From Gemmatimonadota bacterium (lineage in GTDB: Bacteria; Gemmatimonadota; Gemmatimonadetes; Longimicrobiales; Gaopeijiaceae), in assembly GCA_027623325.1 (NCBI GenBank), contig JAQBXY010000004.1, forward strand, positions 62,001 to 126,000: a stretch of 64,000 nucleotides of DNA, given 5' to 3'. A program made the position numbers and the translations under genes. Position 1 is the first letter of the stretch; every line of letters begins with the position of its first letter. The notes under the pieces are model-generated. The model did not search any database and had not been told where the DNA came from. It saw only the letters and a program-made list of their open reading frames with translations. Positions 57,183 to 61,212 of this stretch are shown one piece after another.

Positions 57183-58070
57183 ATGGAAGACGACGTCCAG
57201 ACCGACGGCCCGGACCGCTCGCGGGCGCGCGCCTACTATGAGCTGACCAAACCGGGAATCGCCGGCTATGTCATGGTGACGGCCGGCGTCAGCGCCTTCG
57301 TCGGGGCCCGAGGCGACCTGGCACTCGCCCTCGCGCTGAACACCATGGTGGGCACGGGACTCGCCACGGCGGGCGCCCTCACGCTCAACCAATACGTCGA
57401 GCGCGAGGCCGACGCGATCATGCACCGGACGCGCGGCCGGCCGATCCCGACCGAGCGCGTGACGCCAATGGAGGCGCTCGCATTCGGCAGTGCGCTCCTC
57501 ATGAGCGGGCTCTTGTACGTGGCGCTCGCCGTGGGCGCGCTACCCGCGCTGATCACGGCTGCAAGCGCGCTCATGTACCACGCGGTCTACACACCGCTCA
57601 AGAGCCGTTCGTACGTGGCCACGCTGGCGGGCGCGGTGCCCGGCGCCCTGCCCATGCTCATTGGCTGGACGGCCGCGACGGGCACCATTGATCGAGGTGG
57701 GCTGGCCATGTTTGCGATCGGCTACCTGTGGCAACTCCCCCATGTGCTCGGGCTCGCGTGGATGCTTCGTGAGGACTACGCCCGGGTCGGCTTCAAGCTG
57801 ATCCCGAGCGGCGGTGCTCGGTCGATCGGGCTCCAGATGATGGCCGCGACCGGGCTTCTCCTCCCCATCAGTTGGGCTCCGTTCGGGCTGGGGCTGACCG
57901 GTGTCACGTATCTGATCGGGGCCAGCGTACTCGGGCTCGGTTTCCTGTCGACCGCGATCGCCGCAGCACGAGAGATGACGGAGGCCAGTGCCCGTCGGGT
58001 CTTCTTCGCCTCCCTCCTCTATCATCCGTTCCTGCTGGCCCTCATGCTATTCGACACCATTCGTTTGTGA
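57183..58070 (+). CDS. ctaB: Heme O synthase (protoheme IX farnesyltransferase)
   Basis: 295-aa UbiA-family prenyltransferase that farnesylates heme B to heme O for cytochrome oxidases. The first prenyl-diphosphate site is LNQYVEREADAIMHRTRGRP (E replaces the usual first D of the NxxxD pattern), the second is YHAVYTPLKSRSYVATLAGA, with PGALPMLIGWTA and GYLWQLPHVLGLAWMLREDY. About nine membrane helices. ATG start. No oxidase subunits are nearby. Confidence 0.93.
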   Translation: MEDDVQTDGPDRSRARAYYELTKPGIAGYVMVTAGVSAFVGARGDLALALALNTMVGTGLATAGALTLNQYVEREADAIMHRTRGRPIPTERVTPMEALAFGSALLMSGLLYVALAVGALPALITAASALMYHAVYTPLKSRSYVATLAGAVPGALPMLIGWTAATGTIDRGGLAMFAIGYLWQLPHVLGLAWMLREDYARVGFKLIPSGGARSIGLQMMAATGLLLPISWAPFGLGLTGVTYLIGASVLGLGFLSTAIAAAREMTEASARRVFFASLLYHPFLLALMLFDTIRL

Positions 58071-58085
58071 TGTAGGAGGTACGCC

Positions 58086-59246
58086 GTGTTTCGCTTCTTG
58101 CTGTTCACGATGGCCCTGGCCCTTCCCGTCACGGCGACCACTCAACAACCCGATCGACCACGCGCACGTGACCTCGGCGTGTTCGTCGGCGTGTTCGAGC
58201 CGGGACCGCACAACGCGATCACGGATGTCGCCGGTGTGCGCGTGGGGCATGCCACCGTCATCCAGGCCCCGAACATTCGCACTGGAGTGACTGCGATCCT
58301 GCCGCACGGTGGCAATCCGTACCTGTCTCGTGTACCCGCCGCGATCCACGTGGCCAACGGATTCGGCAAACTGCTCGGCATGACCCAGGTCCAGGAGCTT
58401 GGCGAACTGGAGACCCCCATCCTCCTGACGTGCACCCTGTGCGTATGGAAGGCGGCGGACGCGATGGCCGAGTGGATGCTCGACCGCGACGGTATGGAGG
58501 AGGTCCGATCCCTCAACGCGGTCGTGGGGGAAACGAACGACGGCGGACTCAACGATATCCGAGCCCGGCCGATCGAAGCGGCTCACGTGGTAGCGGCGCT
58601 CGAAAGCGCAACGACGGGTCCCGTCGCGGAGGGTGCGATCGGCGCCGGCGCTGGTACGGTGGCGTTCGGCTGGAAAGGCGGGATCGGCACGAGCAGTCGT
58701 GTCCTGCCGACGAGCCTCGGAGGCTATTCTGTGGGCGTCCTCGTGCAGTCGAATTTCGGGGGCATCCTTCAGATGAACGGGGCCCCGGTAGGGATCGAGC
58801 TCGGCCAGTACGCGTTCTCAGATCAGGTAAATCGCGACGAGAGTTACGAACCCGAATCGGATGTGCAGGAGTGGGGGTCCATCATGATGGTGGTAGCCAC
58901 CGACGCCCCGCTCTCGGAACGAAACCTGGAACGTGTGGCCCGCCGTGCGATCATGGGGCTGGCTCGAACCGGTTCCTATGCGAGCAACGGATCAGGTGAC
59001 TACGTGATCGCATTCTCCACCGCCAACGGGGTTCGCCGCTCCACGACGGGCGGCGTGCACAGCGTCGATGATCTGTCCAACAACAGCGTGAGCGCACTCT
59101 TCGAAGCGACGGTCGAAGCGACAGAAGAGGCCATCTACAACTCTCTCCTGAAGGCGGAGACCGTCACGAGCAACGGCCGCACGATCGAGGCCCTCCCCAT
59201 CGCCGAGGTTCTCGAGATTCTTCGGCGCTACGGAGCGGCCCGATGA
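58086..59246 (+). CDS. P1-family peptidase (DmpA/BapA-like aminopeptidase)
   Basis: 386-aa N-terminal-nucleophile-type aminopeptidase with a cleavable signal peptide (FRFLLFTMALALPVTATTQQ), so it acts outside the cytoplasm. Family segments: ITDVAGVRVGHATVI, SLNAVVGETNDGGLNDIRAR, VAEGAIGAGAGTVAFGWKGG, IGTSSRVLP, and TGSYASNGSGDYVIAFST, where the Gly-Ser bond is the expected self-cleavage site and Ser the nucleophile. GTG start after TAGGAGG. The stop overlaps the start of the MerB-like gene (ATGA), indicating cotranslation. Confidence 0.92.
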   Translation: MFRFLLFTMALALPVTATTQQPDRPRARDLGVFVGVFEPGPHNAITDVAGVRVGHATVIQAPNIRTGVTAILPHGGNPYLSRVPAAIHVANGFGKLLGMTQVQELGELETPILLTCTLCVWKAADAMAEWMLDRDGMEEVRSLNAVVGETNDGGLNDIRARPIEAAHVVAALESATTGPVAEGAIGAGAGTVAFGWKGGIGTSSRVLPTSLGGYSVGVLVQSNFGGILQMNGAPVGIELGQYAFSDQVNRDESYEPESDVQEWGSIMMVVATDAPLSERNLERVARRAIMGLARTGSYASNGSGDYVIAFSTANGVRRSTTGGVHSVDDLSNNSVSALFEATVEATEEAIYNSLLKAETVTSNGRTIEALPIAEVLEILRRYGAAR

Positions 59247-59956
59247 GGGACGACGACACGACCGACGTCCACACCCAAGGTGAGGACGCTCCGACGGATT
59301 TCGACTGGGCCGTCCGGACTCGTATCTATCGGACGTTCGGCGAAACAGGTGGCGCTCCGGTGGTCGCCGAAATCGCCGCTGCGGTCGGTGGGACCGAGTT
59401 TCAGGTCCGCGAATCGTTGCGACGCCTTTTCGCCGCACACGAAATAGCTCCCCTCCCCGGCGGGAACGGCGTTTGGATGGCCAATCCGTTCTCGGGCGTG
59501 CCTACGGCATATTCGGTCGAGACCGAGGACATGACGTGCTACGCAAACTGCGCCTGGGACGCTCTGGGCGTGGCCGCGATTCTCGACACGGATGCCTGGA
59601 CAAGCACTCGATGCGCGGAGAGCGGCACCCCACTCGAGTTCGGCGTCGTCGACGGTGAGGTTCAGAGCGAATCAGGAGTGATTCATCTCGTCACACCGAT
59701 CCGGGATGCCTGGGTCGACATCGGGTTTACGTGAGCGAATTACCTCGCCTTCCGGTCGGAAGGGGACGTCGCTGCCTGGCTCGAACGCACCGGCCGGGCC
59801 CGCGGAGCCTTGGTGACTTTCGAGCAGATGTGGGACCTGGTTCAGCCCTGGTACGCCGGCAGGCTGTCGCCCGCCTGGCGCGGGCGTAGCGCCGACGACG
59901 CGCAAGCCATTATCGACAGCGTGGGCCTCGTCGGCGACTTCTGGCGACTGGTCTGA
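59243..59956 (+). CDS. merB: MerB-like alkylmercury lyase, probable selenoprotein
   Basis: 237 residues when the TGA at 59732-59734 is read as selenocysteine (residue 164). MerB cleaves the carbon-mercury bond of organomercurials. An N-terminal winged-helix region (residues 20-75) precedes the catalytic domain: YANCAWDAL gives C103 and D106 (C96 and D99 of E. coli MerB), STRCAESG gives C124 (C117), and WVDIGFT-U-ANYLAFRSEGDV places U164 at the second active-site cysteine (C159 region). Homology continues beyond TGA: VTFEQMWDLVQPWYAGRL, SADDAQAIIDSVGL, GDFWRLV. The ATG overlaps the peptidase stop. If TGA were a true stop, the product would end at residue 163 without this residue. Substrate in this organism is unproven. 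Confidence 0.82.
59741..59769 (+). promoter_or_regulatory. Candidate bacterial SECIS element
   Basis: CCTTCC (59748-59753), loop GGTC (59754-59757) and GGAAGG (59758-59763) form a perfect 6-bp stem; after a G-G mismatch two further pairs and, past another mismatch, two more extend it. The loop begins 19 nt after the TGA with two Gs, as required for SelB binding. In E. coli fdhF the loop is also GGUC, one base nearer. The element lies within the coding sequence, as bacterial SECIS elements do. Confidence 0.78.
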
Positions 59957-59965
59957 TCGGGCAGT

Positions 59966-61177
59966 TCACGCCCCAGCTGCAAAGGCCGCCCCGGAAGAGA
60001 CCAGTTCATCGATCTCCGAAGATTCCAGTCCGGCCTCTTCCAAGAGCTGCCGTGTGTGCTCACCCAGCATCGGCGCCCCTCGCCGGCCCGTGGACCGGGG
60101 CGTGGCAGACATCTTCACTGGATTGCCGAGCGACCGGACGGCACCGAGTCGACTGTGCTGAACGTCGACGACCATGTCTCGTGCGAGTGTTTGGGGATGA
60201 TCGAGCATCTCTCCGATCGAGGCGATCGGACCCGCAGGTACACCCTCGGCGGCGAGACGCTCGAGCCACTGGTCCGACCCGGCCGTAGCGAAGACGCGAG
60301 CCAGTTCTTCGCTCAGTTGCTCGCGGTGTTCCATGCGGCCCGCGTTGCTCACAAACCGTTCGTCCGCAGCCAGCGTCTCCGAACCGACCACACGTGTGAG
60401 TCCCCGCCACGTCGACTCGTTGGACGCACCGACGTTGATCCAACCGTCCGCGGTCGCGAAGGCCTGGTACGGCGCCGCCAGGGGGTGAGCGGAACCCAGG
60501 GGCCCGGGCGACGCACCCGTCGCGAGCGTGATCGCGCTCTGCCAAAACGTTTGAGTGATGCCGGCCTCGAAGAGCGACGTGTCGACAAGCTGTCCGCGCC
60601 CCGTGCGTTCACGCTCCACGAGCGCGCTCGCGACACCGAACGCGGCCAAAATGCCTGCGGTGATGTCGGTAACGGGGGCTCCCACCTTGACCGGCGCACG
60701 CCCCTGGCCTTCCCCGGTCACGCTCATCAGGCCGGAGTAGCCCTGGGCGATCAGATCGAAGCCTCCCTGCTCAGCGAGCGGACCCGTTCGTCCGAAGCCC
60801 GTGATCTGGCAGTAGATGAGCCGCGGATTGGCCTCGGAAAGGGATTCCCAGCCCAGCCCCATCTTCTCCATCGTGCCGACCCGGAAATTCTCGATGACCA
60901 CGTCGGCCGAGAGAAGCAGTCGCCGAACGACCGCGATACCCGCAGCCGTGCGGAGGTCGAGCGCGAGTCCCTGCTTCCCCCGGTTGAGCATCATGAACGC
61001 AGCAGACTCGTCGCCGACGTTGGGAGGAACGAAACCGCGCGTCCCGTCACCTCCCGGCAATCGCTCGACCTTGACGACGTCGGCTCCCATGTCCGCCAAC
61101 AAGAGGCCACAGACCGGACCCGCCATGATGTGCGCCAGTTCTACGACGCGAACTCCCCCGAGGGCTCCGATACTCAC
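59966..61177 (-). CDS. CaiB/BaiF-type CoA-transferase (family III)
   Basis: 403-aa family III CoA-transferase that moves CoA between organic acids. Seen: LGGVRVVELAHIMAGPVCGL, DMGADVVKVERLPGGDGTR, FMMLNRGKQGLALDLRTAAG, ADVVIENFRVGTMEKMGLGW, and the catalytic aspartate in KVGAPVTDITAGILAAFGVA. The GTG at 61177 gives the usual N-terminus; the frame runs far upstream without homology. It is the last gene after the TRAP transporter and the hydratase; it may activate the imported acid as its CoA ester. Confidence 0.92.
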   Translation of the reverse strand: MSIGALGGVRVVELAHIMAGPVCGLLLADMGADVVKVERLPGGDGTRGFVPPNVGDESAAFMMLNRGKQGLALDLRTAAGIAVVRRLLLSADVVIENFRVGTMEKMGLGWESLSEANPRLIYCQITGFGRTGPLAEQGGFDLIAQGYSGLMSVTGEGQGRAPVKVGAPVTDITAGILAAFGVASALVERERTGRGQLVDTSLFEAGITQTFWQSAITLATGASPGPLGSAHPLAAPYQAFATADGWINVGASNESTWRGLTRVVGSETLAADERFVSNAGRMEHREQLSEELARVFATAGSDQWLERLAAEGVPAGPIASIGEMLDHPQTLARDMVVDVQHSRLGAVRSLGNPVKMSATPRSTGRRGAPMLGEHTRQLLEEAGLESSEIDELVSSGAAFAAGA

Positions 61178-61212
61178 GTGATGCGACTGGGGTAGCTCGG
61201 CACAGCGCTTCC

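Follow-up and report, generated by a model that had tools for sequence, protein, structure and literature searches.

The window analysed here, a stretch of 64,000 nucleotides from a Gemmatimonadota genome, harbours on its forward strand a UbiA-family prenyltransferase gene (57183-58070), a peptidase family S58 gene (58086-59246; PF03576, 378.6 bits) and a MerB-family gene (59243-59956). The last two overlap by 4 nt, the ATG of the MerB-family gene overlapping the stop codon of the S58 gene (ATGA). A CoA-transferase family III gene, whose exact start is uncertain, lies convergently downstream on the reverse strand (59966-61195). The MerB-family gene is interrupted by an in-frame TGA (59732-59734), and it is referred to below as Sec-MerB. 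With this TGA translated as selenocysteine (U164), the frame is open and encodes 237 residues; the only TGAs in it are the one at residue 164 and the terminal one (59954-59956), and 73 sense codons follow U164. A first-pass annotation, made from the sequence alone, had described a complete MerB-like frame broken only by this TGA, with MerB homology and no further stop in the 73 codons beyond it. Both statements were borne out by the frame and by the match to Pfam MerB (PF03243; 87.5 bits against a gathering cut-off of 27, E 9.4e-25), which spans residues 83-204 and crosses the TGA.

C103 (TGC, 59549-59551), D106 (GAC, 59558-59560) and C124 (TGC, 59612-59614), all on the forward strand, aligned with C96, D99 and C117 of E. 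coli MerB, as had been proposed. C103 was invariant in 29 aligned homologues and D106 nearly invariant, the CxWC sister group described below having Cys in its place, while C124 proved not to be invariant in the family, a refinement of the original assignment. U164 had been placed at the second catalytic cysteine (the C159 region), and it aligned with the single active-site cysteine of MerB2 (5c17). E. coli MerB has two adjacent cysteines (C159-C160), and one profile alignment inserted a gap that set U164 opposite C160. The ungapped comparison of FTUANYLAFRS with RFCHFVHFFRS from a canonical Gemmatimonadota MerB with a single cysteine (L053) gave U164 = C159. The window protein thus has the equivalents of Cys96 and Asp99 expected of the MerB family, but at 159 the expected Cys is replaced by a Sec codon, a Cys/Sec exchange in the same position. 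An AlphaFold2 model of Sec-MerB (mean pLDDT 94.5) had mercury-bound MerB2 as its top match among solved structures (Z 19.4, 3.2 Å over 191 residues), followed by MerB (Z about 15.5).

Conservation of the TGA

A homologue with TGA at this residue was present in 38 of 196 related genomes (Gemmatimonadota), mostly at 69%-34% identity. Scanning GTDB genomes with a single protein as query gave no match; a profile query succeeded and returned 290 encoding loci, and the best 80 of these 290 were read, all of them with TGA at the column (80/80). The loci with TGA belong to Gemmatimonadota, Actinomycetota, Acidobacteriota, Chloroflexota (with Thermomicrobia), Marinimicrobia, KSB1 and Eremiobacterota. 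One locus titled Gammaproteobacteria (L142, VXNP01000090.1) is probably mislabelled and was left out of this tally. The TGA was also kept in 12 full-length Chloroflexota and 15 Acidobacteriota members of the family. Its recurrence at one column in the 38 relatives and in 80/80 GTDB loci excludes chance. The Sec form occurs in more than 100 mostly uncultured bacteria of at least six phyla, apparently unnamed until now.

The codons after the TGA were open, usually 74-77 before the stop, and ended in a conserved W-Y and a G-L-x-G-x-F-W motif. Between relatives dN remained well under dS upstream of the TGA and likewise downstream of it from codon +17, the downstream range excluding the RNA hairpin described below. 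A conserved TGA followed by an open frame under purifying selection excludes a pseudogene or a sequencing error. Frameshifts and decay downstream of the TGA, which the first-pass annotation had named as evidence that would count against selenocysteine, were absent from nearly all relatives; one exception is L049 (genome G052), one of the 38, which looks decayed and has a second TGA off-site.

No phage carrying Sec-MerB was found in a phage search. The plasmid matches listed were Cys relatives (26-33% identity), apart from one broken copy on a Rubrobacter radiotolerans plasmid (L151). This Sec-MerB remnant is annotated as a 90-residue merB that ends near the TGA, and it is apparently frame-shifted afterwards.

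Cysteine forms, SelB and phylogeny

The alternation of Cys and Sec at residue 164, put forward earlier as a check, was found: the column held U or C across the homologues, with a single exception. Cys was present in the CxWC sister group (L046, L047, Paraburkholderia and Sphingomonas plasmid copies, L214 and L215), in a Chloroflexota group (L174-L176, L193) and in canonical MerB. In the CxWC homologues L046, L047, L149, L150, L214 and L215 the Asp99 equivalent is replaced by Cys, and Cys117 is lost in those checked. The exception is the closely homologous L210 (G696, Acidobacteriota), in which Ser occupies the C96 column and Trp the Sec column; it is intact and apparently catalytically dead, and shows that the fold can lose both catalytic residues.

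In the Chloroflexota Cys forms the RNA hairpin was absent. Three Chloroflexota genomes with Cys forms gave no SelB match above cut-off, and in the same search SelB was detected in 8/8 genomes with Sec forms. Among the relatives of the host, SelB was above cut-off in 35/38 Sec-MerB genomes versus 107/158 others (Fisher p 0.001, uncorrected for relatedness); the three Gemmatimonadota Sec genomes that lacked a full SelB match are MAGs of 81-83% completeness. In the wider GTDB scan, 33/37 carriers had SelB above cut-off. A tree built without the two catalytic Cys columns separated the Sec family and its two Cys groups from canonical MerB (96% SH-aLRT), and the Sec label required three changes on it; this was a quick search with long branches present.

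The hairpin after the UGA

A search for a SECIS element just past the UGA had been suggested, and a hairpin with the core CCUUCC-GGUC-GGAAGG was found there (59748-59763, forward strand). It starts 13 nt past the UGA, inside the coding sequence, and its loop (59754-59757) lies 19 nt past the UGA. The segment 59746-59765 folds at -10.1 kcal/mol (z -2.1), and the whole 48 nt after the UGA of this gene reaches a z of only -1.3. The bSECIS model asks for an apical loop of 3-9 nt with G in the first two positions, 16-37 nt from the UGA, and an MFE of -7.5 or lower (PMC13188914); the hairpin agrees with these constraints (loop GGUC, 19 nt, -10.1 kcal/mol). Folding energy alone was rejected as evidence: in these G+C-rich genes, the mean over the 48 nt after the UGA was not clearly below that of control windows. 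As energy did not discriminate, codon choice and covariation were used instead.

A hairpin of up to 7 pairs followed the UGA in 95 distinct sequences, its loop, 19 nt past the UGA, being GGUC in nearly all of them. It falls in the codons for F-R-S-E. Conservation of the protein may explain these residues but not the choice of codons, and we take the following codon lock as evidence for the RNA. Arg was CGG in 90/95 sequences (30% elsewhere in the same genes; binomial p 9e-41), Ser was TCG in 87/87 (33% elsewhere; p 1e-42) and Glu was GAA in 73/94 (36% elsewhere; p 2e-16), all three p values being uncorrected for relatedness. The stem showed 52 double-sided changes versus 24 in shuffles, and its covariation score (0.219) was reached by 0/500 shuffles and by no slid version. 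A covariance model trained solely on loci outside Gemmatimonadota matched the window hairpin (59732-59779) with 40.7 bits (1.4e-9); every other match in the 64-kb window was at 0.39 or worse. Among very distant homologues, the same model also picked out the second UGA. L190 is one of them: its innermost pair is U-A in place of C-G, the GGUC loop is unaltered and the protein has F-W-S-E in place of F-R-S-E, indicating that conservation here lies in the RNA and not in the protein.

Selenocysteine machinery of the host genome

The first-pass annotation had asked for selA, selB, selC and selD in the same genome, and all four are present in the host (3.35 Mb, reported 100% complete): selA (459 bits), selB (323.7 bits against a cut-off of 242), a tRNA-Sec (selC) with UCA anticodon (70.8 bits against a gathering score of 47) and selD (381.8 bits; L064, G000:C8:257912-258832). 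Nothing required for Sec decoding is missing. The selD gene itself carries one in-frame TGA and is a selenoprotein gene with a different SECIS hairpin. The loop of the latter is not GGUC, which makes the GGUC loop a trait of the Sec-MerB family and not of the genome. TGA is also an ordinary stop codon in this host, terminating both the Sec-MerB gene and the upstream S58 gene.

Relatives with two in-frame TGAs

Three paralogues in the Chloroflexota genome G368 (L179, L194 and L195) each carry one in-frame TGA at the C96 position (QUGFE/D) and another at the C159 position. The second TGA of each is accompanied by a GGUC hairpin, and SelB is present in G368. Their sequences mark them as apparent doubly-Sec MerBs. 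L190 (G243, Chloroflexota) is a distant homologue with two TGAs (YAAUAIDAIAV and IDAFURNSVFF), closer to canonical MerB; the hairpin after its second UGA is UUCUUCU-GGUC-AGAAGAA, and G243 has SelB. Among intact family members, the positions at which Sec stands in for Cys are thus precisely the two catalytic ones that bind the metal, in support of the Sec reading and of an active site that handles metal.

Gene neighbourhood and mer genes

The UbiA and S58 peptidase genes were kept upstream of Sec-MerB only in close Gemmatimonadota relatives. In several Chloroflexota loci (e.g. L107, L110 and L125), Sec-MerB sits with tsf (EF-Ts) on one side and pyrH (UMP kinase) on the other, within the rpsB-tsf-pyrH region. 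A search for conserved neighbours revealed no partner gene common across phyla and no mer gene conserved alongside. MerA was above cut-off in 4/38 Sec-MerB genomes of the phylum, no more than expected (Fisher p 1.0), and the host genome is among these four. It harbours a merR-merT-merA cluster on another contig (G000:C38, L152, 7957-10585), with no merB recognised beside it.

Proposed activity and substrate

The TGA at 59732-59734 is almost certainly a selenocysteine codon, as judged from the sequence evidence. The candidate selenocysteine MerB-family protein is supported by the Sec machinery, the SECIS hairpin, the Cys/Sec alternation and the lack of decay in nearly all relatives. The best overall explanation, and a probable one, is a selenoprotein that acts as a MerB-type organometal lyase. 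In MerB the metal is held by Cys96 and Cys159, and proton transfer involving Asp99 releases the hydrocarbon; Hg(II) is afterwards handed to thiols, classically those of MerA (PMC4525700, PMC8261052). On the model of this biochemistry, organometal lyase-type chemistry is very likely for Sec-MerB, and the C/D/U arrangement suggests the same protonolysis with one selenolate ligand. SelB and tRNA-Sec would insert Sec at the UGA, directed there by the in-gene SECIS with its GGUC loop. The U164 selenolate and the C103 thiolate would then grip the metal of the organometal, most likely methylmercury (R-Hg+), D106 would donate the proton that frees the hydrocarbon, and the metal ion would depart to cellular thiols or selenols. 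Selenium would plausibly speed up both the attack on the metal and its exchange where the metal is scarce and MerA is absent.

Mercury itself, to which homology alone points, is a reasonably likely substrate. The same Sec-MerB may instead have a physiological substrate other than mercury (organotin, organolead, organoarsenic, organoselenium or tellurium) or serve in metal transfer, a reading that we consider less likely. It would fit a solo gene outside any mer context, the lack of MerA in 34/38 Sec-MerB genomes and surroundings that vary by phylum, with the S58 peptidase in Gemmatimonadota and rpsB-tsf-pyrH in Chloroflexota. However, the protein retains the C/D and U/C triad of mercury-cleaving MerB and its closest solved structure is mercury-bound; MerB without MerA is, moreover, also common for Cys-MerB (PMC8261052).

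The readings that deny selenocysteine can be dismissed. A true stop, nonsense mutation or sequencing error, leaving a pseudogene or a truncated protein of 163 residues, is how annotation pipelines read such a TGA and would suit the broken Rubrobacter copy, but it has a negligible probability given that more than 100 genomes from several phyla share the TGA at one column, that selection beyond it is purifying, that the SECIS shows codon lock and covariation, and that SelB co-occurs. Equally negligible is a genome-wide reassignment of TGA, or its readthrough as Trp, Gly or another residue, for which the Trp of L210 could be cited: TGA terminates this gene and the S58 gene, the column is otherwise Cys in homologues, and Sec machinery and SECIS are present, the latter missing from the Chloroflexota Cys forms.

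Gene surveys for MerB, the enzyme responsible for methylmercury destruction, seek intact Cys proteins. As ordinary annotation cuts the Sec frame before the second catalytic residue, this family is likely to be overlooked or mis-scored. Hardly any mer genes were listed for Gemmatimonadetes in a 2021 survey (PMC8261052); in contrast, 38/196 genomes related to the window carry Sec-MerB. More tentatively, a large and mostly uncultured branch of the MerB superfamily may use Sec by default, in some members at both C96 and C159, and comprise selenium-dependent organometal lyases that work without MerA and outside mer operons on ambient methylmercury or another organometal. How MerB works without MerA, and what a metal-carbon lyase gains from selenium, become testable questions, with natural Cys, Sec and Sec/Sec versions at hand for comparison.

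Comparison with known MerB-type proteins

Sec-MerB shares with E. coli-type MerB (NF033555, NF009710) the fold, the Cys96 and Asp99 equivalents and the second catalytic position, but it differs in having Sec for Cys159, an identity of about 21%, a C-terminal extension and no mer operon. It scored well below the NCBIfam MerB equivalog cut-offs (34.9 of 200 bits for NF033555 and 43.8 of 193 bits for NF009710). MerB2 (5c17), the closest solved structure, has a single cysteine at the Sec position; this is Cys and not Sec, and the identity is 22%.

The first-pass annotation knew of no characterised Sec-containing MerB. Predictions had in fact already been catalogued. No dedicated NCBIfam model (June 2026) covers the window family. 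SaoL, the MerB-like organometallic lyase of the SAO system (NF040728), is related to MerB and is a listed selenoprotein with a 'CU' motif (PMC13188914). The window protein reached 32.6 bits with this model (cut-off 140); seven other homologues, some of them divergent, scored 29-52 bits and an eighth (L118) gave no match. SaoL is described with the CU motif, which the window protein lacks (it reads GFTUA). No SAO neighbours were recognised around the window gene, which lies among the UbiA, S58 peptidase and CoA-transferase genes and not in an SAO operon. 'Organic mercuric lyase MerB2' is a further entry, in a list of prokaryotic selenoproteins (PMC7435645, Table 4), where this Sec-containing MerB-family member appears by name in the table only, without sequence or Sec position. 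Sec-containing MerB-like proteins are thus already known as predictions (SaoL and 'MerB2'), and the window family, set apart from SaoL by model score and description, is best regarded as a new Sec-MerB family within MerB and not as a new kind of protein.
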